A DNA stretch of 60,000 nt, from assembly GCF_026151205.1 (NCBI RefSeq), contig NC_087076.1, positions 1,747,692 to 1,807,691 on the forward strand. Reading direction: 5' to 3'. A program made the position numbers and the translations under genes. The notes under the pieces were generated by a model. That model ran no database searches. It was not told where the DNA came from and worked only from the letters and a program-made list of their open reading frames with translations. The stretch is from Bolinopsis microptera. Lineage: Eukaryota > Ctenophora > Tentaculata > Lobata > Bolinopsidae. Below are positions 18,801 to 45,124 of the stretch, one piece after another (position 1 is the stretch's first letter; every line of letters starts with the position of its first letter).

Positions 18801-21800
18801 TAACGATACGAGGACAGGCTTCATTGCAGAGGGCTGGGTCAAAACTTCAGATCTTGAAAGTGTCAGACAAGCTCTAAAAAAGGGGGCTGTAAGTTTTAGT
18901 TCTTGATTTTCTTTTGAGTTTTTTCATTTTTGGGTGTGATAATTGAAGAGTTTTAGTGCTATAATGTTTCAGTTAGGTTCAATTTCTTTTTTCGTCACCT
19001 TTATATCTTTGTATTAGACAGTTTTTGGGTTTTCCAAATAGTTTCTGATTATTCTGATTTGCGACAAATGATATTGCACTGTTAGGATAAACGACGTTTC
19101 AAAGTAACAACTTCTTATTCATGCTGACAAAATTGGTAAATATGTGAGAAAACTGTCTCATAAAATTTATTGATCAAAAATGGCTAAACGACAACAAATT
19201 GTTCAAATACTCGACTAAAATTAGAATCAAAATCTATATATATACACCACTACTCGATCTGCTATTCAATAAACTTAAAACATCCACTAAACAGCAAGTA
19301 CGTGATTGTGATCGTGTGATGGAATGACATGTACAGTGATAACAGATGATAAGATGTATCTTTGTATTGGTACAGTCAAACTTTTATTATATACCGTGCC
19401 TCTGTATATCTGGTACCTCGATATAAGGCCCTAATGGGGTAAATTATAGGTTATTTTAGAGGCTGCAGATACTGGGATTGGGATTATGTGAACCTCTCTA
19501 CACTGAGTTTTTTCTTCTATACCGTGCGCTTTTCGTTTCCCCCGAAATGCCCGGTATAGAGAGGTTTCACTGAACCAGGAAACATACAGGTTGTTGTGTG
19601 TAGACTGTAGTGTAACATTATAAAAAGTGTAAGCTGGCCTTGGCAATATAAATAGACTCCATGGTACGAATTTTTTGTTAAGATCGTTCCAATTACAAAT
19701 GTCACATTATTACCTTTACCTTTGATACCTTTGATCTGCTTCGTCGAAACTCGACAGGCCATCAGAGTTGCTGACCACCCCAGAGGGCAGATGCCTCTCG
19801 ATCGTTACGCCAGTCCAGTATAGAATTGGAGTTCGGTGATGTGAAGCCCCGGAAAGGCGGTTTATCCGGCAAGGAAAGCATGAATGCCGTCATATGATCC
19901 TTGAAGCCATCGTATCACGTATCTGACACGTATCAAAACAACACCTCACTAATTTAAGTCGATCGTATTCTACAGGGTGATTTAAAAGAGTGATAAAAAG
20001 ATAATTTATATCAATACAAAAATTGTTGTGTATAAGTTCTTAAGTTAATGGTGGATTCTAAGTTTTAGAGGTTGCCATAACCAGTGGCCACCATAGCAAC
20101 CATACATCGGGGAAAATTCCAATTAAAAATCCAGTGGGCCAGATAAGTAGAAAGAACATTTATTATATAACCTAACCCTGGGTCCGTACAAAGAACATTT
20201 ATATAACCTAACCCTGGTTCCGTACAAAGAACATTTATATAACCTAACCCTGGTTCCGTACAAAGAACATTTATATAACCTAACCCTGGTTCCGTACAAA
20301 GACTATTTATATAACCTAACCCTGGTTCCGTACAAAGAACATTTATATAACCTAACCCTGGTTCCGTACAAAGAACATTTATATAACCTAACCCTGGTTC
20401 CGTACAAAGAACATTTATATAACCTAACCCTGGTTCCGTACAAAGAACATTTATATAACCTAACCCTGGTTCCGTACAAAGAACATTTATATAACCTAAC
20501 CCTGGTTCCGTACAAAGACCATTTATATAACCTAACCCTGGTTCCGTACAAAGAACATTTATATAACCTAACCCTGGTTCCGTACAAAGAACATTTATAT
20601 AACCTAACCCTGGTTCCGTACAAAGAACATTTATATAACCTAACCCTGGTTCCGTACAAAGAACATTTATATAACCTAACCCTGGTTCCGTAAAAAGAAC
20701 ATTTATATAACCTAACCCTGGTTCCGTACAAAGAACATTTATATAACCTAACCCTGGTTCCGTACAAAGAACATTTATATAACCTAACCCTGGTTCCCTC
20801 AGACTTCAGCAGGTAGTGTGGTTATGCCGATACTGAACACAGTTGGAACCAATCTAACACCTCCTACCTACCACCCCTCCATTAAACTTACTAAGGGTTA
20901 CCAAGTTATTATAGACGCGTACGGTGTCGCTACTTATCAAGAAATGAACCCTGGTCAGTGTTTTCTCCGGAGGAGTCGTTAAATGTATTTAGTTATTTGA
21001 GGCATTAAATTGAATTGTAATGATGCCCCCTCATATTGTTTTACCCGACTTCAGTTGCAATACTTTGAGATTTGCCAGAGGAGGAAGTTGGTGCCATTTA
21101 ACGAGGGCAGGCTCACAATTCTGACTTTTTATGTTAGGTCTGTTGGACCGCTGATTGCGATAATAGTTTCCTGTGTCGGCAGTGTTTTGGGACTAGTAGT
21201 GTGCATAAAATCACCAACAAATATGTATTTATAAATGGTGCTAAGATGTGCTTTCCCATTTCCTCTGAGATAACCTGATCAAAATCACGATTTGTTACTT
21301 TCTCTCTGACTATTAAAATTAGTAACAAATAAACGTTTCAGCCGTCTACACGGTCATTACATTCCCGTTCCTGTTTGGAATTATGTTTGGAGACATGGCA
21401 CACGGACTTTTCCTCTTTTTATTCGGCGCCTGGTTTATCTATAAGGAATCTTATTTTGATAAAAGAAAACACTTATTGGACGAAGTAAGCAATGTTTTTA
21501 AAGTAATGAATTTTACGATAATTATAATGGGAGACTTCTTCAATCGTTCATGACCTAATAATTCCGTAAATAATATTCATGACCACCTTATACTCAGATC
21601 ATTGCAATGTTGTACTATGGGAGATACATAATAATGATGATGGGGATATTCGCTTCTTACAGTGGTTTTCTCTACAACGAGATATACTCCAAAGGATTTG
21701 ATATCTTCGGGTCCAGCTGGAGAATGCCAAACGACGACATAACGTGAGAAAATTTGTTACTTAAAGCGGCTAAGTCAAAATATAAATAAGATCCCAAAAT

Positions 21801-24648: not shown

Positions 24649-25062
24649 TTAAAATTCCTGGCTCTGTGAGCTGGATTTTCCCTTGCCGGCTTTGGTGCTA
24701 CCGGACTTCTTGGGCAGAAGGACTGCCTGGATGTTGGGCAGGACACCACCTTGGGCAATGGTTACACCGGCGAGAAGCTTGTTGAGCTCCTCATCGTTCC
24801 TCACAGCAAGTTGAAGATGACGGGGGATAATCCTGGTTTTCTTGTTGTCACGGGCAGCGTTGCCGGCCAACTCGAGGATCTCAGCTGCGAGGTACTCCAT
24901 GACGGCAGCCAGGTAAACTGGTGCTCCGGCACCGATTCGTTCACCATAGTTTCCCTTACGGAGGAGTCTGTGGACACGACCTACGGGGAACTGAAGTCCA
25001 GCTCTTGAGGACCTTGTCCTAGATTTAGCTTTGGCTTGTCCACCTTTACCACGTCCAGTCAT
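24649..25062 (-). CDS. H2AX: Histone H2A.X (SQEF tail), 137 aa
   Basis: The protein has the complete H2A histone fold, with [19 protein letters not shown] and [12 protein letters not shown] blocks. Unlike the other H2A in the window it has a longer C-terminal tail rich in Gly, Lys and Ser, ending in SQEF. A terminal SQ(E/D)-hydrophobic motif defines H2A.X, whose serine is phosphorylated by ATM/ATR-type kinases at DNA double-strand breaks. The start at 25062 gives MTGRGKGG, the normal H2A beginning; the upstream open frame is not histone-like. The gene keeps a replication-dependent stem-loop. H4 lies on the same strand about 1.3 kb upstream. Confidence 0.93.
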
Positions 25063-26324
25063 GATGAGAGTTAGAGTATTTGAGTCTTTGAAATCGTAGA
25101 ATGAGCGAGAGAATACGTCGGGCAGGATTTTAAGGGCCAGTACACAAAAGTGCTTCTTCACTTTCCTGGATCGACGTGTTATTTTAGCGGATAAGTAAAA
25201 TTTCACTGCCGCGAGTATTTTGGAGGCAAGAAATGTTATAATCTAACGTGATTTGAACCTTATTACTTCCTTTGTATCATTATATAGTTGTTTTGTCCTA
25301 AGATATACCCAGGTAGTCTCTAAAAATTGGCTGATATATCCATGCAAAGGTGCACTGGATTATTGGATAGTAGTATACAAACTGTCCGGTCGTCCTTATT
25401 TCTACAAATTCTAAATATGAACGGTCGTGCCTTTAAATTTGAGACGTCCTGTGTACCTCATTTTAAGATATAAGGTCTTTTGCGAGACATAATCATATCA
25501 AAATATAAAACTTCTCACTCCCTCTTCAATAAGACTGATATGCTTGAGGATCAATGCCTTTTTGGAGGTGATAAATTTAGATTTTTGGCATCACATACAT
25601 TTCCTTGTCAAATTAAGACTATGGCTGTATCAAACGGCTACTATTCTCTGTTACAGTTTCAAAAGACAGTCGTATGATAGTTTGAATTGATCCTTCACTC
25701 ACTGGAAATTTGTCAAGCACCGTTATTTAGAAATTTAAAAGTGCATTTCTTGCAATGAAGTTAAACGATACTATTAATCCGATGTGTGAGGCACGAACGT
25801 TTATTTACTAATATTGTAGATATTTGTAGATACGAGTTACCTAGGCACGAGAGTACTCATTAATACACGTGTAGAAATTAACGAGACGGCTACATCTCAT
25901 CGTCATACATGGACATAACAGCTTTTCGAAGGTTTGTACATATAATGGAGTAGTTTTATATGCAAAAAATATCTTTAATTCTGAATCAAATTCATAATTA
26001 TATAGAATGGCCGTTATCATACCGTCCTCTGTGGACGATTGAGGCACGAACGTACGTTCTCTTATTTTGTAGAAATTAGGGAGAATAAAATGTAGCAGGC
26101 ACGCGAGTACGTTTTTCAACACTCGTAGAAATTGGCCACATAGCATAAATGTGTGTTTTGGAACTTAATTCTGTAGTTTAGTAAAAAGTATACTAAAACT
26201 TGGCTGACCAGACCTACAAATAATAAGTTGGAAAGACAAATACTAAACTTGGACAATTTGAATAATATTGTTGTACTGTAACATAGTACACAGTTAGACA
26301 AGTTTTCTTTTTTGATTTTTGTGG
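25063..26324. other. Spacer between H2A.X and H4
   Basis: The promoter of H2A.X must lie at the left side. The rest is AT-rich. Motifs GAGGCACGAACGT and CACTCGTAGAAATT-like text recur at 25790-25880 and 26033-26150; the latter is repeated near 30628. Confidence 0.4.
26033..26150 (+). repeat. 118-bp direct repeat, nearly identical copy at 30628-30744
   Basis: From GGACGATTGAGGCACGAACG through AGCAGGCACGCGAGTA to ATAGCATAAA the two copies differ at only a few bases. Both lie downstream of a histone gene (H4 here, H2A at 30341). A more diverged copy is at about 25790-25880. Confidence 0.85.
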
Positions 26325-26340
26325 GGCTTTGAGAAAAGCC
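26325..26340 (-). terminator. Histone 3' stem-loop of H4
   Basis: The minus strand reads GGCTTTTCTCAAAGCC, a canonical stem-loop with a TTCTC-type loop, 55 nt after the H4 stop. It is followed by the A-rich AAAAATCAAAAAAGAAAAC stretch expected of the downstream element. Confidence 0.92.
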
Positions 26341-26394
26341 GTTGTTTGAAATCGAGCAGGCTCGAGATCAGGTAGGTGGAAAGCAGCAGGCTGC

Positions 26395-27930
<1,536 letters not shown>

Positions 27931-28593
27931 ATGCCCGCCGCACCCAATAAGAAAGCTGCACCCAAGAAGCCCGCTGCCCACCCAATGTACAAGGACATGA
28001 TTGCCTCTGCCATCTCGGAACTCAAGAACAAGGGAGGAAGCTCAAAGCTTGCCATCTCCAAGTACATCGTCAGCAACTACAACGTCGGTGACAAGATTGA
28101 TTCTCACCTCAAGACTGCCCTTCTCCGAGGGCTCGCTTCGGGAGCTCTGGTCAAAAAGACCGGACTCGGCTGTTCTGGTTCATTCAAGCTGGCCAAACCT
28201 GTTACTGCACCCAAAAAGGCTGCACCCAAGAAGAAGAAGCCCGTCACCCCAAAGAAGAAAGTCGCCCCCAAGAAGAAGGTAGCCCCCAAGAAGAAGGTAG
28301 CCCCCAAGAAGGCTGCAACTCCCAAAAAGAAGGCTGCCACTCCAAAGAAGAAGGTTGCACCAAAGAAGAAAGCCAAAGTAACCCCCAAGAAGAATCCTGC
28401 CCCCAAGAAGAAGAAGCCCGTCACCCCCAAGAAGAAGGTCGCCCCCAAGAAGAAGGTAGCCCCAAAGAAGAAGGCTGCCACTCCCAAGAAGAAGGTTGCA
28501 CCAAAGAAGAAAGCCAAAGTAACCCCCAAGAAGAAGCCTGCCCCCAAGAAGAAGAAGCCTGCTGCCAAGAAGGTAGCAAAGAAAGCCAAATAA
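27931..28593 (+). CDS. H1: Linker histone H1, 220 aa
   Basis: Residues about 15-88 form the winged-helix globular domain (HPMYKDMIASAISELKNKGG, SSKLAISKYIV, LKTALLRGLASGALVKK, GCSGSFKLA). It binds the nucleosome dyad and linker DNA. The N-terminus is short and basic, and the C-terminal 130 residues are almost entirely Lys, Ala, Pro and Thr in PKKKVAPKKK-type repeats. The tail contains an internal duplication: a block of about 40 codons around AKVTPKK-PAPKKKKP occurs twice (about 28372 and 28510). Antisense frames over the tail are artefacts of the repeat. There is no intron, and a 3' stem-loop follows. Confidence 0.97.
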   Translation: MPAAPNKKAAPKKPAAHPMYKDMIASAISELKNKGGSSKLAISKYIVSNYNVGDKIDSHLKTALLRGLASGALVKKTGLGCSGSFKLAKPVTAPKKAAPKKKKPVTPKKKVAPKKKVAPKKKVAPKKAATPKKKAATPKKKVAPKKKAKVTPKKNPAPKKKKPVTPKKKVAPKKKVAPKKKAATPKKKVAPKKKAKVTPKKKPAPKKKKPAAKKVAKKAK

Positions 28594-28667
28594 GCGCCTC
28601 GCCCCGCTTTTTTGCTTTCCCAAGGCCTCGGGGACCCGATGTCCCGGTACGAGGTTTTACCCCTAAC

Positions 28668-28683
28668 GGCTTTCATAAAAGCC
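28668..28683 (+). terminator. Histone 3' stem-loop of H1
   Basis: GGCTTTCATAAAAGCC, a six-pair stem with loop CATA, lies 75 nt after the H1 stop. A-rich sequence AAAAAAAAACTC follows. Confidence 0.85.
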
Positions 28684-28899
28684 CCCATTTATCAAAAAAA
28701 AACTCTTCGTATATACATTCAGTCAACACTGGTTAGTTCTAGGCTCCGCGCACGAATCTAGTCACCGAGCCGCTCAATTGATTTATCGGTACCCCGAAAT
28801 TGAGATTCAAAATCCCACTCTTGAAGCAGGGCTTATCGTGGGTGGAGAGGGGCCTATTGAATCAGTACTAGCTCTCGAAGTATAGTATGCAAAGCAAAA

Positions 28900-29022
28900 G
28901 AATATGGCACCGGGAATTCCCAGGCGGTCACCCATCCAAGTACTAAACCGGCCTGCAGTTGTATTGTTTAACTTTCCAGATAGAACGAGATGGGGTGTAT
29001 ACAACAGAGTATGGCCGTATCC
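28900..29022 (-). rRNA. 5S ribosomal RNA gene (or very young pseudogene), 123 nt
   Basis: On the minus strand the sequence begins GGATACGGCCATACT and runs through AAAGTTAAACA, GGTTTAGTACTTGGATGGG, TGACCGCCTGGGAA and GGTGCCATATTC, the standard 5S order. Helix I pairs (GGATA with TATTC and GGC with GCC) with one C-A mismatch between. The internal promoter box C text (TAGTACTTGGATGGGTGACC) is nearly consensus. TTTT follows at once (28899-28896), a polymerase III terminator. The middle (about 28945-28985) departs from the usual sequence and is 2-3 nt longer, so function is likely but not certain. It sits between H1 and H2B. Confidence 0.82.
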
Positions 29023-29229
29023 AACCACACTGAAATTTGGACGTATATCAACAATTTGATTGAGGCACACAAAATGCACCACAAGTTCGCCACCACTGCA
29101 GAATTATGTAAGTTGGGTATCTAGATTTATGTTCCAGAGTTTTTGATGGAAATCATAATGGGATAATTTACATGCTCACAGTACAAGGTAGGTAGTTAGT
29201 TAGTGTTTTCTTTATTGATAAGTGTGTGT

Positions 29230-29245
29230 GGCTTTAAGAAAAGCC
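29230..29245 (-). terminator. Histone 3' stem-loop of H2B
   Basis: The minus strand reads GGCTTTTCTTAAAGCC, a canonical stem-loop 65 nt after the H2B stop. Confidence 0.92.
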
Positions 29246-29309
29246 TTTTAGTTAGAGAGATCGCGACCAACCGAGAGGCCGGACAACTCTCCCAAGGAGT
29301 ACATCCATC

Positions 29310-29687
29310 TTACTTGGTAGAAGATGAAGTGTATTTGGTGACGGCCTTGGTGCCTTCGGAGACAGCATGCTTGGCCAATTCACCGGGGAGGAGGAGACGG
29401 ACAGCGGTCTGGACCTCTCTGGAAGAGATGGTCTTACGCTTGTTGTAGTGTCCTAGGCGAGAAGCCTCTCCAGCGATCCTCTCGAAGATGTCGTTCACGA
29501 ACGAGTTCATGATAGACATTCCCTTGGAGCTGATTCCGGTGTCGGGGTGCACCTGCTTCAGGACCTTGTAGATGTAGATGGAGTAAGATTCCTTCCTTTT
29601 CTTCCTGCGTTTCTTACCATCACCGGCAGGACGTCCGGCTTTCTTGCCTGCCTTCTTTTCGGCTTTCTTTCCAGCAACTGGAGGCAT
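29310..29687 (-). CDS. H2B: Histone H2B, 125 aa
   Basis: Complete H2B: a Lys/Ala-rich N-terminal tail, then [56 protein letters not shown] and [19 protein letters not shown], ending YTSSSTK. It forms the H2A-H2B dimer. It has no intron and is divergent from the H2A gene at 29964, with 276 bp between the two start codons, the usual animal H2A-H2B pair. A TATA box for this gene lies at about 29759-29770 on the minus strand. Confidence 0.98.
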
Positions 29688-30341
<654 letters not shown>

Positions 30342-39067: not shown

Positions 39068-39405
39068 CGTGCATAAGTAATAAAGCCAAAGACAGGCACG
39101 CCTGAAAAGTTAATCAAACAAATTCGAAGATCAGTCACGTTCGCGAATGTGGAATGACGAACCAAAAGTTCACAACGCGCGCGGTGTTCATACTTAAATA
39201 ATACATATAATGCTTTTGAATACGACGCTGGAAACACACAACGTAAGTGCATGGGTTGCTCTATCCAGAGCCCTTGCGCTTGCAGTAGCGCGCAGTAGCG
39301 CGCGCCCGCCTCACGGCACCCACCTCAAGATCGGGTGACAGGGGGAGCTGACCAGTAGTGTAAGAGGATTTTTTCGAGCTCCGTTTACCCCTAAAATTGA
39401 GGCAC

Positions 39406-39475
39406 ATTTAGCTTTAGCACAGTTGACTAATCTGCCACATTTTAGCCAGAGGTTACAAGTTCGAATCCCAGTCGG
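39406..39475 (+). other. tRNA-like sequence with A and B boxes, left arm
   Basis: An A-box-like TAGCACAGTTGAC precedes a B box AAGTTCGAATCCC at usual tRNA spacing. The T and acceptor stems do not pair well and there is no T-run terminator, so it is not a normal tRNA. The mirror copy is at 44914-44983 on the minus strand. Confidence 0.45.
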
Positions 39476-40252
39476 AGTCGTTCTCCAATGTGATTATATT
39501 ATTATGGTACACATTTTAACCTAGTTTAACCCATATTCAAGCAATCTAACCCTACATAATACATTCATCACACAGCAGAAGTCGTTAAATGTATAGTGTA
39601 CACGTTCACGTACAATTACATCAGTTGTCTATCGACATTATTAACATCTGGCACGCGGCGACCTTTTATTTGTAAAGTGTGCTGATAAAGTGAGATAATG
39701 AATAATGTGCTTTCTAAATTTAACTAGGGACAGAGTGTACCGTTTCAGGACAACACCTGCAACTTTGCTTACACTATCATTCAGCGTTCAGCGGTGTGTT
39801 GCGTAAATTTTGACTCTGATTCAGCTTTAATTGTTATTATCTTTAACTTTAAGGTTAAGTTTTTAATTCTTTTACCGTAGTCGGTCACGTAACACTGACT
39901 GTTTGATATGAACTCTAATTTATAAAGAGCACTTTCAGGATGCAGATGGTTACTCTACAGCAGCTCAAGAATACTACGTCATTGTATAGCCATAAGCCTT
40001 GTACAGCATAGTTACAGTAACATCTGTGCAATGTATTTGACACAAATCTCTTGTCAAGAACTGCTGGTCTAGATATTTTCTACTTTCTAAAATTATATCA
40101 TATGAATGAATACTGAATGATAATTATAATGTATTATTTAAATAAGTTATAATGTAGACAAGGAAACACACGTTTAGATTTTTGAAGATAACTTAAACAA
40201 AACTATATTCAATAACTCTATATCATATATATTATATATGTCCAAATACTTA

Positions 40253-40888
40253 TCAATAGTTAACAACGTTTTGGTTATAAAGTTCATGAATCTTCCTAAC
40301 GATATTTTTGTTCTCGTTCATTAGTTTGTTGACATCAGATAGACTAGTAGTCATGATAACTGCATCCAATAGAGCTCGCGCTTCAATACTTAAAATTGTG
40401 GTGATATCTTGTCCACAGTCAACGAGAAGCTGCTCCAATGTCTCAAAAATTTCAGTTTTCATTATGTAAGAGAATAAAAAGTCGAAACATGTGTCTTCCT
40501 CTTTACATAATTTTCTTTGTAACAGGACGTCTAGAGTTTTGAGTAATTTCGACATCTTCACCTTTTTATTTATTTGCTTGATTACTTCACCTTTTCGCTT
40601 GCCTTTGCGTTGTCGAACAATACTAGATTCTGTTTTTGACTCATCATCACCGCTTGTTTCCTCAGAGTTAGAACCGTCTTGATGAGATCTTTCAGATATT
40701 GTTGTATCAGTATCTGAATATGTGGCAGCAGGATAATCCATTTCAACATCAGACACATCCGAGTTAGCTTTTGACACGATAGAGCTTGTGTCTGACTGTA
40801 CGTTCTCTCGATGAAACCGACTTTTGTGTGAGGACAGACTTCGCTTGTTAGCGAATTGTTTATCACAGAGCGGGCAGAACACTGACAT
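40253..40888 (-). CDS. C2H2 zinc-finger protein of the palindromic element, left-arm copy, 211 aa
   Basis: One zinc finger opens the protein: CPLCDKQFANKRSLSSHKSRFH, with spacing C-x2-C-x12-H-x4-H. An acidic Ser/Thr/Asp-rich linker (residues about 30-80), a basic patch (RQRKGKRKGEV, then INKKVK) and a mostly helical C-terminal half follow. DNA or RNA binding through the finger is likely; a regulatory or packaging role in the element's cycle would be inference. I start at MSVFCPLC because a TATA box (TATATAAGG) lies 36-44 bp upstream of that ATG; the in-frame Met 23 codons earlier lies upstream of that TATA box. The protein is identical to the right-arm copy. The gene reads toward the outer terminus. 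Confidence 0.82.
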   Translation of the reverse strand: MSVFCPLCDKQFANKRSLSSHKSRFHRENVQSDTSSIVSKANSDVSDVEMDYPAATYSDTDTTISERSHQDGSNSEETSGDDESKTESSIVRQRKGKRKGEVIKQINKKVKMSKLLKTLDVLLQRKLCKEEDTCFDFLFSYIMKTEIFETLEQLLVDCGQDITTILSIEARALLDAVIMTTSLSDVNKLMNENKNIVRKIHELYNQNVVNY

Positions 40889-41039
40889 CACTGATTGAAA
40901 TGAACTGTTCCCGACAGTCTTCTCCTTATATAGGCGACTGCTCACAAATTTACGCAAATATCGCTTAATTTTACTTAAATGTTATTCAATGCTTCAATAC
41001 TCAATGTTGTTAATTTTTTTGGTCCTATATTATTCGATG

Positions 41040-41747
41040 TTGCCCAAATGTTGCTTAGTGTTGCTTAATGACCAATGTTGATTAATGTTGTTCGATGTTG
41101 CTAGATGTTTCTCAATATTGTTCATTTGGTCGTATATTATTCAATGTTGCTCAAATGTTGATCAAATGTTGCTAAAATGCTGCTTAAATGCTGCTTAAAT
41201 GTTGCTTAAATGTTGCTCAAATTAAATGTTGTTTAAATGTTGCTTAAATTTTGCTTAAATGTTTCCTAATATTGTTAAATGTTGCCTAAATGTTGTTAAA
41301 CATTGCTGAATATTGCTGAGTGTTGTTCAAATGTTGCCCAAATGTTGCTTAGTGTTGCTTAATGACCAATGTTGATTAATGTTGTTCGATGTTGCTAGAT
41401 GTTTCTCAATATTGTTCATTTGGTCGTATATTATTCAATGTTGTTCAAATGTTGTTCAAATGTTGCTAAAATGCTGCTTAAATGCTGCTTAAATGTTGCT
41501 TAAATGTTGCTCAAATTAAATGTTGTTTAAATGTTGCTTAAATGTTGCTTAAATATTTCCTAATATTGTTAAATGTTGCCTAAATGTTGTGAAACATTGC
41601 TGAATATTGCTGAGTGTTGTTCAAATGTTGCCCAAATATTGCTTAGTGTTGCTTAATGACCAATGTTGATTAATGCTGTTCGATGTTGCTAGATGTTTCT
41701 CAATATTGTTCATTTGGTCGTATATTATTCAATGTTGCTCAAAAGGC
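41040..41747. repeat. Left-arm repeat array, 294-bp period, two full periods
   Basis: The landmark TGCCCAAA recurs at 41041, 41335 and 41629, spaced exactly 294 bp. Within a unit the sequence is largely an 11-bp motif, AAATGTTGCTT, with variants. Unit types with ...CCCAAATATTG and ...CCCAAATGTTG can be told apart. Confidence 0.92.
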
Positions 41748-41856
41748 TAAAATTTTGACTCTATCCAGCGCAAATACACCCATTTTTCAGTGCTTTAATC
41801 TATTTTTAGTAACACTATTATAGATGTCTACTCAAGTTACGACATCAACTCAGTGC

Positions 41857-41945
41857 AAACTGCACACCTGTTTCAAATACGTCTGCAACTAAGAATTCTT
41901 GTGCTGTAAGTTAAGAAATTACCGCGGATGTTATTAGGTGTTAAA
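41857..41945. other. Unique 89-bp centre of the palindrome
   Basis: The only part of the element not present twice. It contains GAATTCTTGTGCTGTAAG and no open frame or known motif. It prevents a perfect hairpin tip. Confidence 0.8.
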
Positions 41946-42062
41946 GCACTGAGTTGATGTCGTAACTTGAGTAGACATCTATAATAGTGTTACTAAAAAT
42001 AGATTAAAGCACTGAAAAATGGGTGTATTTGCGCTGGATAGAGTCAAAATTTTAGCCTTTTG

Positions 42063-43350
42063 AGCAACATTGAATAATATACGACCAAATGAACAATATT
42101 GAGAAACATCTAGCAACATCGAACAGCATTAATCAACATTGGTCATTAAGCAACACTAAGCAATATTTGGGCAACATTTGAACAACACTCAGCAATATTC
42201 AGCAATGTTTCACAACATTTAGGCAACATTTAACAATATTAGGAAATATTTAAGCAACATTTAAGCAACATTTAAACAACATTTAATTTGAGCAACATTT
42301 AAGCAACATTTAAGCAGCATTTAAGCAGCATTTTAGCAACATTTGAACAACATTTGAACAACATTGAATAATATACGACCAAATGAACAATATTGAGAAA
42401 CATCTAGCAACATCGAACAACATTAATCAACATTGGTCATTAAGCAACACTAAGCAACATTTGGGCAACATTTGAACAACACTCAGCAATATTCAGCAAT
42501 GTTTAACAACATTTAGGCAACATTTAACAATATTAGGAAACATTTAAGCAAAATTTAAGCAACATTTAAACAACATTTAATTTGAGCAACATTTAAGCAA
42601 CATTTAAGCAGCATTTAAGCAGCATTTTAGCAACATTTGATCAACATTTGAGCAACATTGAATAATATACGACCAAATGAACAATATTGAGAAACATCTA
42701 GCAACATCGAACAACATTAATCAACATTGGTCATTAAGCAACACTAAGCAATATTTGGGCAACATTTGAACAACACTCAGCAATATTCAGCAATGTTTCA
42801 CAACATTTAGGCAACATTTAACAATATTAGGAAATATTTAAGCAACATTTAAGCAACATTTAAACAACATTTAATTTGAGCAACATTTAAGCAACATTTA
42901 AGCAGCATTTAAGCAGCATTTTAGCAACATTTGAACAACATTTGAACAACATTGAATAATATACGACCAAATGAACAATATTGAGAAACATCTAGCAACA
43001 TCGAACAACATTAATCAACATTGGTCATTAAGCAACACTAAGCAACATTTGGGCAACATTTGAACAACACTCAGCAATATTCAGCAATGTTTAACAACAT
43101 TTAGGCAACATTTAACAATATTAGGAAACATTTAAGCAAAATTTAAGCAACATTTAAACAACATTTAATTTGAGCAACATTTAAGCAACATTTAAGCAGC
43201 ATTTAAGCAGCATTTTAGCAACATTTGATCAACATTTGAGCAACATTGAATAATATACGACCAAATGAACAATATTGAGAAACATCTAGCAACATCGAAC
43301 AACATTAATCAACATTGGTCATTAAGCAACACTAAGCAACATTTGGGCAA
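42063..43350. repeat. Right-arm repeat array, 294-bp period, four full periods
   Basis: The landmark TGGGCAACA recurs at 42168, 42462, 42756, 43050 and 43344, each 294 bp apart. Two unit types alternate (CAATATTTGGG and CAACATTTGGG), so the array is a dimeric higher-order repeat of 588 bp. It exceeds the left array by one 588-bp dimer. Confidence 0.92.
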
Positions 43351-43456
43351 CATCGAATAATATAGGACCAAAAAATTAACAACATTGAGTATTGAAGCAT
43401 TGAATAACATTTAAGTAAAATTAAGCGATATTTGCGTAAATTTGTGAGCAGTCGCC

Positions 43457-43465
43457 TATATAAGG
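43457..43465 (+). promoter_or_regulatory. TATA box of the right-arm C2H2 gene (mirror in the left arm)
   Basis: TATATAAGG lies 44 bp before the ATG at 43501, which predicts a leader of only about 10-20 nt. The identical box in the left arm is at 40924-40932 on the minus strand. Confidence 0.65.
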
Positions 43466-43500
43466 AGAAGACTGTCGGGAACAGTTCATTTCAATCAGTG

Positions 43501-44136
43501 ATGTCAGTGTTCTGCCCGCTCTGTGATAAACAATTCGCTAACAAGCGAAGTCTGTCCTCACACAAAAGTCGGTTTCATCGAGAGAACGTACAGTCAGACA
43601 CAAGCTCTATCGTGTCAAAAGCTAACTCGGATGTGTCTGATGTTGAAATGGATTATCCTGCTGCCACATATTCAGATACTGATACAACAATATCTGAAAG
43701 ATCTCATCAAGACGGTTCTAACTCTGAGGAAACAAGCGGTGATGATGAGTCAAAAACAGAATCTAGTATTGTTCGACAACGCAAAGGCAAGCGAAAAGGT
43801 GAAGTAATCAAGCAAATAAATAAAAAGGTGAAGATGTCGAAATTACTCAAAACTCTAGACGTCCTGTTACAAAGAAAATTATGTAAAGAGGAAGACACAT
43901 GTTTCGACTTTTTATTCTCTTACATAATGAAAACTGAAATTTTTGAGACATTGGAGCAGCTTCTCGTTGACTGTGGACAAGATATCACCACAATTTTAAG
44001 TATTGAAGCGCGAGCTCTATTGGATGCAGTTATCATGACTACTAGTCTATCTGATGTCAACAAACTAATGAACGAGAACAAAAATATCGTTAGGAAGATT
44101 CATGAACTTTATAACCAAAACGTTGTTAACTATTGA
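43501..44136 (+). CDS. C2H2 zinc-finger protein of the palindromic element, right-arm copy, 211 aa
   Basis: The translation is identical to the left-arm gene over all 211 residues: a single C-x2-C-x12-H-x4-H finger at residues 5-26, an acidic Ser-rich linker, a basic patch and a helical C-terminus (FLFSYIMKTEIFETLEQLL, SIEARALLDAVIM). No intron is needed. Both genes read outward from the centre, with the repeat array behind the promoter and about 900 bp between the stop and the terminus. An AT-rich near-palindrome (ATATATAATATATATGATAT) lies just past the stop. Perfect identity of two copies implies recent origin or continuing conversion between arms. Confidence 0.82.
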   Translation: MSVFCPLCDKQFANKRSLSSHKSRFHRENVQSDTSSIVSKANSDVSDVEMDYPAATYSDTDTTISERSHQDGSNSEETSGDDESKTESSIVRQRKGKRKGEVIKQINKKVKMSKLLKTLDVLLQRKLCKEEDTCFDFLFSYIMKTEIFETLEQLLVDCGQDITTILSIEARALLDAVIMTTSLSDVNKLMNENKNIVRKIHELYNQNVVNY

Positions 44137-44913
44137 TAAGTATTTGGACATATATAATATATATGATATAGAGTTATTGAATATAGTTTTGTTTAAGTTA
44201 TCTTCAAAAATCTAAACGTGTGTTTCCTTGTCTACATTATAACTTATTTAAATAATACATTATAATTATCATTCAGTATTCATTCATATGATATAATTTT
44301 AGAAAGTAGAAAATATCTAGACCAGCAGTTCTTGACAAGAGATTTGTGTCAAATACATTGCACAGATGTTACTGTAACTATGCTGTACAAGGCTTATGGC
44401 TATACAATGACGTAGTATTCTTGAGCTGCTGTAGAGTAACCATCTGCATCCTGAAAGTGCTCTTTATAAATTAGAGTTCATATCAAACAGTCAGTGTTAC
44501 GTGACCGACTACGGTAAAAGAATTAAAAACTTAACCTTAAAGTTAAAGATAATAACAATTAAAGCTGAATCAGAGTCAAAATTTACGCAACACACCGCTG
44601 AACGCTGAATGATAGTGTAAGCAAAGTTGCAGGTGTTGTCCTGAAACGGTACACTCTGTCCCTAGTTAAATTTAGAAAGCACATTATTCATTATCTCACT
44701 TTATCAGCACACTTTACAAATAAAAGGTCGCCGCGTGCCAGATGTTAATAATGTCGATAGACAACTGATGTAATTGTACGTGAACGTGTACACTATACAT
44801 TTAACGACTTCTGCTGTGTGATGAATGTATTATGTAGGGTTAGATTGCTTGAATATGGGTTAAACTAGGTTAAAATGTGTACCATAATAATATAATCACA
44901 TTGGAGAACGACT

Positions 44914-44983
44914 CCGACTGGGATTCGAACTTGTAACCTCTGGCTAAAATGTGGCAGATTAGTCAACTGTGCTAAAGCTAAAT
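44914..44983 (-). other. tRNA-like sequence with A and B boxes, right arm
   Basis: Mirror copy of 39406-39475; see that entry. Confidence 0.45.
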
Positions 44984-45124
44984 GTGCCTCAATTTTAGGG
45001 GTAAACGGAGCTCGAAAAAATCCTCTTACACTACTCTGACCATGCCCGAACCTAATTGATTGGGTCTGAGGTCACGTGATTATGAGCCTATGAGGTCACG
45101 TGACTATGACGTCACTTGATTCAC

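Follow-up and report, generated by a model that had tools for sequence, protein, structure and literature searches.

A 60,000-nucleotide stretch of the genome of the ctenophore Bolinopsis microptera (NC_087076.1, positions 1,747,692 to 1,807,691 of the forward strand, assembly GCF_026151205.1; referred to here as the window) contains a near-perfect palindrome of 5682 bp, delimited by self-alignment, which carries a C2H2 zinc-finger gene in each arm and is flanked by a 6-bp duplication (Table 1). Related palindromes occur at tens of loci in the same genome, and two sister subfamilies have several hundred terminal bases in common with elements that carry a capsid gene or lie next to one.

Structure and insertion of the window element

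A preliminary description, drawn from the letters of this DNA, had placed two inverted arms here around an 89-bp centre, with AG...CT ends, CTGACC on both sides and an intact C2H2 gene in each arm, and every part of it was borne out. The outer parts of the arms (39354–41743 and 42647–45035) are 99.9% identical over 2390 bp; the inner parts (41037–41856 and 41946–42765) pair over 820 bp with one mismatch. Chance could not plausibly produce inverted arms this long and this similar. The arms are unequal in length (2.5 versus 3.1 kb) because a 294-bp tandem array has approximately two more units in the right arm. The central 315 bp (41744–42058) are 87% identical to the centre of another palindrome, L028. 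With termini that read AGTAGT...ACTACT, the element is a unit bounded by a 6-bp duplication and by Polinton-type (AGT)2 ends. PMC8097293 gives (AGT)2//(ACT)2 as the commonest end motif of vertebrate Mavericks, together with 6-bp duplications.

When the flanks were joined without the element, keeping one CTGACC, 38 of the 65 listed matches ran straight across the join at 89–97% identity; two were the window's own flanks and 25 were shorter and lay on one side of the join (scores cover 40 of the 2229 candidates, and a small gap close to the join could be present). Judged from these matches, the flanks are a host repeat into which the element inserted, and most copies of the repeat that were seen are without it.

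Each arm has one open C2H2 reading frame, with no difference between the arms in 645 bp. The zf-C2H2 matches of the encoded protein are weak and below Pfam's cut-offs, and a scan of IMG/VR with the C2H2 alignment found no relative; its structural model was too poor for use (predicted local distance difference test score, pLDDT, 53.7). As a guess from the zinc finger alone, the protein is probably a DNA-binding replication or regulatory factor. The element has no further open reading frame (ORF) of at least 150 amino acids, and the window gave no match to the PolB pieces of either type of long element described below. Nor did protein comparison and the ORF list reveal an rve integrase or a capsid, ATPase or protease gene in the window. 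No transposase was recognised among the listed ORFs of two palindromes (the window element and L040), no dedicated search having been made.

Two further candidate features were rejected. A tRNA-like terminal segment had been seen by eye near 39413–39480, and ARAGORN (bacterial code) gave no tRNA in the window. The sole Rfam match in 39300–45100 was MIR7723, with 66.9 bits against a gathering score of 200; it sits on the central palindrome and was taken as a by-product of the self-complementarity there.

A family of palindromes with concerted arms

The preliminary description had predicted other palindromic copies with 6-bp duplications, and these were found. The terminal 153 bp of the window element have at least 43 matches in the genome, 32 of which make 16 inverted pairs when paired by eye (a lower bound, with 40 of 52 candidates scored). 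Of the 151 matches obtained when the genome was searched with the C2H2 protein (scores for 150 of 156 candidates), the 150 listed merged to 110 gene copies: 74 form 37 inverted neighbour pairs within 9 kb and 32 are single. At C1:22.03 Mb, four copies form two same-strand pairs that mirror each other (+,+,-,-), and no other same-strand pair occurs among the 110 listed copies. There (C1:22029437–22039575) the zinc-finger part lies within open frames of 405 and 398 amino acids, which form an inverted pair placed outside another inverted pair.

Subfamily labels (A, B, D and E) were assigned by likeness of the gene. Most of the 37 inverted pairs are known from genes and termini alone; in fully read palindromes of several subfamilies the best arm alignments cover approximately 2.0–3.7 kb at 98.2–99.9% identity. 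Palindromes C21 and C10 align to their own reverse complement over the whole length, and C8 and C11a are palindromic in part only. Among the 34 elements tested, a set that includes long elements and Polintons, 30 are flanked by perfect 6-bp duplications. In the first set 16 of 17 were perfect, the miss being C1:24844786 (4 of 6 bases; one element printed with two alternative right ends was counted once), and in the second 14 of 17, the misses being a 3.2-kb element on C1 and elements on C6 and C12, in the last of which GATACA recurs three bases further on. Counting palindromes, all nine of one set had perfect duplications, as did 14 of 15 elements with an inverted C2H2 pair in the other, where two Polintons were also perfect.

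The gene points outward in 32 of the 37 inverted pairs and inward in five. We take the two orientations to mean that the palindrome originated at least twice, the alternative being that the gene was inverted in both arms. Short inverted pairs of approximately 1 kb with a shared subterminal segment occur at C7:6697421–6698646, C11:6787120–6788062 and C12:15101204–15102421, and are possible miniature members.

The gene is read as under selection because the ratio of non-synonymous to synonymous substitution rates (dN/dS) is 0.30–0.49 between subfamilies. Within subfamilies it is 0.11–0.58 (pairs with at least eight changes), two B pairs excepted. Five of the 60 genes in this set are broken copies (three A, one B and one E); in seven D copies the sole stop falls at the end of the fetched stretch.

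Arm symmetry was examined in the C2H2 genes of 28 of the 37 inverted pairs (four A, 16 B, four D and four E), several of the other nine having broken copies. Identity between arms was 99.4–100% in 27 of the 28 palindromes, and in 22 the other arm of the same element was closer than the best match in any other element; three tied with another element (A_C10, B_C2y and D_C9) and three fell below it (B_C4, B_C6 and D_C3). Against the subfamily consensus, 168 variants were present in both arms and 49 in one arm (28 of these in B_C4), counts that include variants common to related elements and hence non-independent events; no position was variant in both arms with a different base in each. The A palindrome C4b has the same broken frame in both arms. 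Two D palindromes, on C3 and C9, are at most single bases apart in gene and termini, with gene gaps of 4466 and 4465, and on this likeness palindromes seem to move as units.

B_C4 (C4:2664209–2670744, L119) is a hybrid palindrome with arms from two B lineages. Its outer 100 bp are identical and its central part is 99–100% identical, a pattern that suggests exchange between elements, after which the ends would have been restored from each other.

Long relatives, Polintons and possible traces of strand switching

Subfamily A, to which the window element belongs, has longer relatives: three elements of 14 kb (L023, L021 and L025) and one of 21 kb. They have termini in common with the window element and a C2H2 gene at 91–98% (91–95% at the amino acid level in the 14-kb elements); 6-bp duplications are present in two of the three 14-kb elements, and their gene-and-array part is 82% identical to that of the window element. 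The long elements also carry a PolB-like protein, in which exonuclease motifs were read by eye and which has 34 homologs, the one with a species name being from a sea anemone; pieces of the protein gave no polymerase match in Pfam. The long A-type elements gave no match to a Polinton integrase, ATPase, capsid or protease (one 14-kb element complete, the other two minus 2.5 kb), and the 14-kb elements, with PolB and C2H2 genes, are perhaps a separate PolB-only element type.

In sister subfamily B, two long elements terminate in the same 235 bp as palindrome L039 (scoring covered 40 of 72 candidates), one of 12.0 kb at C7:16159956–16172003 (L077/L078) with the perfect duplication GGCTAG and one of 18.4 kb at C1:8045654–8064101 with the perfect duplication ATGGGT. 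The outer 362 bp of the C7 element and of L039 are 95% identical, and no other long match between the two was found. Both long elements are Polintons. ORFs of the C7 Polinton gave two rve integrase matches (E 3.6e-5 and 0.011), an ATPase, a C48-like protease and a PolB fragment, and its 435-amino-acid ORF has 70 homologs, of which the one with a species name is from Mnemiopsis leidyi (75%). The model of the closest homolog of this ORF (95% identity; pLDDT 87.4) matched the capsid proteins of Paramecium bursaria chlorella virus 1 (PBCV-1; E 5e-17), Sputnik (1e-14) and mavirus (3.7e-14), and the ORF thus models as a viral double-jelly-roll capsid protein. The C1 Polinton encodes the same six proteins at 98.7–100% and has further PolB pieces with DNA_pol_B_2 matches (2.7e-4 and 3.2e-4). 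An IMG/VR scan with the capsid alignment found no relative, and PHROGs gave nothing useful for the six Polinton ORFs.

The capsid protein has 64 matches in the genome. One lies 8.5 kb from a D-type terminus at C11:10504926, whose end matches palindrome L040 at 89% over approximately 330 bp; with the end and the adjacent capsid gene read separately, D termini are likely common to the palindrome and a gene-bearing Polinton. The single-copy centre of this D palindrome (L040:4030–5532) has two ORFs (219 and 263 amino acids), one of whose products is homologous (38.5%, 2e-34) to a Polinton protein encoded close to the Polinton left end. The expectation in the preliminary description that full Polintons would have the same termini held for B and probably for D, but not for the window's own subfamily A.

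One Polinton has a duplicated end. Positions 1–1205 of L078, in the C7 Polinton, correspond at 99.2% to PolB-side sequence in the C1 Polinton; at 1206 there is an abrupt change, and what follows is the left end in inverted orientation (96.8% over 922 bp). Where the C1 layout has the remainder of PolB and the right end, approximately 7.4 kb in all, the C7 element thus has a 1.2-kb inverted copy of its left end, and its two ends match each other at 99.9% over 1198 bp. At C9:8584200–8593450 (L122 and L123), two inverted stretches of 1749 bp, each with a capsid gene, are 100% identical, and these inverted stretches may belong to a palindromic Polinton whose arms each carry a capsid gene. Both the end replacement on C7 and the inverted capsid stretches on C9 are outcomes to be expected of strand switching.

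Elsewhere in the window, a region of histone-like ORFs (24652–30334) looks by eye like a histone gene cluster and includes an inverted 311-bp repeat at 95% (24692–25002 and 30024–30334), and self-alignment revealed a tandem repeat with a period of approximately 36 bp at 20147–20797 that is open in several frames.

Table 1. Features of the palindromic element in the window (window coordinates)
Feature	Position	Strand	Basis or remark
Left target-site duplication CTGACC	39348..39353		Flank comparison; host repeat matching across joined flanks
Whole palindromic element, ends AGTAGT...ACTACT	39354..45035		Self-alignment
Left arm	39354..41856	+	Self-alignment
Family-wide terminal segment	39354..39500	+	At least 43 genome matches, 32 in 16 inverted pairs, by eye
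C2H2 zinc-finger gene, left copy	40253..40888	-	211 amino acids from first ATG, stop included; transcribed toward left end
Left 294-bp tandem array, ~2.4 units	41037..41743	+	Self-alignment
Single-copy central spacer, 89 bp	41857..41945		Self-alignment
Right arm	41946..45035	-	Self-alignment
Right 294-bp tandem array, ~4.4 units	42059..43353	-	Self-alignment
C2H2 zinc-finger gene, right copy	43501..44136	+	Transcribed toward right end
Right target-site duplication CTGACC	45036..45041		Flank comparison

Origin and maintenance of the palindromes

We consider it probable, at roughly 70%, that the palindromes are non-autonomous elements mobilised by Polintons, and that strand switching in the course of linear replication both created them and maintains their symmetry. 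Polinton proteins would act in trans on the palindrome ends, with a protein-primed polymerase starting at AGTAGT and the integrase inserting the linear product. A palindrome would originate when the growing strand switches to the complementary strand near the C2H2-side end, so that this end is copied back to its tip and the other end is thereby replaced; for the window element, the 14-kb elements suggest what the parent end was. The same fold-back, or pairing of both arms, could keep the arms identical in later cycles, and each product would retain two functional ends and two copies of a small C2H2 protein under selection. The preliminary description had proposed a non-autonomous, Polinton-like derivative formed by strand switching. 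The derivative itself is supported, as a multiplying, gene-carrying family instead of a single defective molecule; we infer the strand switching, and the kind of end duplication expected of it is visible in the C7 Polinton.

Several observations weigh against this interpretation. No integrase- or capsid-bearing element with A-type termini was found, and by eye none of the 64 capsid matches lies within 300 kb of an A-type terminus (termini from the 40 of 52 candidates that were scored); what links the window element itself to Polintons is therefore the type of its ends, its target duplication and the kinship that it has with B and D. The A-type PolB resembles Polinton PolB weakly, through shared relatives, and the Pfam matches to Polinton proteins are below curated cut-offs. 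Microhomology was looked for at the C7 junction and none was seen. The duplication is imperfect or absent in three of 17 elements of one set and one of 17 of the other. Variants present in both arms also fit repeated formation of new palindromes from different parents, and the hybrid at C4:2664209 shows that symmetry can fail. Finally, two within-B pairs have a dN/dS of 1.9 and 2.4 (three or two synonymous versus 21 or 18 replacement changes), which may reflect adaptive change.

The strongest rival is that the palindromes belong to a separate PolB-only lineage, represented by the 14-kb A-type elements, which would replicate itself with a borrowed integrase and share ends with Polintons by exchange only. 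In its favour, the 14-kb elements have the termini and C2H2 gene of the window element, duplications in two of the three, PolB exonuclease motifs and no integrase or capsid match. Against it stand the coverage of that last result (one element complete, the other two minus 2.5 kb) and the termini that B and D have in common with capsid-bearing or capsid-adjacent elements. We regard this explanation as unlikely, though worth keeping in view. The palindromes might instead be fold-back DNA transposons of the ordinary kind, from a different superfamily that makes 6-bp duplications, with arms grown by unequal exchange. Much shorter inverted pairs with a common subterminal segment do occur, and fold-back elements with long terminal repeats are known. 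That palindrome termini are common to Polintons, that one Polinton has a duplicated end and that no transposase was recognised in the ORFs noted above make it improbable.

If the palindromes had formed only once inserted, through inverted duplication or gene conversion within the chromosome, the near-identity of the arms would be explained, yet a single pair of 6-bp duplications encloses the whole palindrome and the near-identical genes and termini on C3 and C9 point to movement as units; we give this very little weight. Inverted arms are hard to assemble, but an assembly artefact is the least credible explanation of all because target duplications, with a host repeat continuing across the joined flanks, tens of loci and small differences between arms all argue against it.

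In its (AGT)2 ends, 6-bp duplication and terminal inverted repeats the window element resembles Polintons/Mavericks (adintovirus-like), and two sister subfamilies have terminal sequence in common with them; unlike Polintons, the window element has no PolB, integrase or capsid genes and is almost all inverted repeat. Fold-back transposons and miniature inverted-repeat transposable elements are likewise non-autonomous and mostly inverted repeat, whereas the palindromes have Polinton-type ends, kilobase arms and an intact gene in each. Yeast protein-primed linear plasmids have hairpin and inverted-dimer derivatives, which are similarly palindromic deletion derivatives of a linear protein-primed replicon, but are non-integrated plasmids. 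Palindromic defective adenovirus genomes are known. In snapback defective genomes of adeno-associated virus, according to PMC8235507, one end is duplicated in inverted orientation to give a self-complementary, helper-dependent molecule. The palindromes would share with both viral types the inverted end duplication that yields a self-complementary genome and the reliance on helper functions. The viral genomes are products of infection, whereas the palindromes are integrated, proliferate as families and bear a gene under selection.

Each component, whether Polinton, fold-back element or snapback genome, has been described before, and the literature searched did not show them combined in a heritable family; a search on Polintons (titles and abstract openings, mostly without subscription journals) gave no description of a palindromic Polinton element, which agrees with the statement in the preliminary description that no element of this design was known. 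What is new is how large the family is, that termini are common to Polintons, that one Polinton has a duplicated end, that the arms vary in concert and that the gene is under selection.

A further suggestion, put forward tentatively, is that self-complementary (hairpin-like) genomes may form a stable selfish element: Polinton satellites whose symmetry would be kept by fold-back replication and which would carry the selected C2H2 gene twice, maybe packaged in capsids and maybe interfering with their helpers. The mode of Polinton replication is mostly inferred from gene content. Here it becomes readable from its products, since the genome has numerous closely similar copies, some of which end in the same sequence as its own Polintons; marks that can be counted are left by strand switching, by end repair and by the homogenisation of arms. 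The family suggests that palindromic defective genomes, of the kind that arise in infections by linear DNA viruses, can turn into heritable, multiplying elements with a gene of their own.

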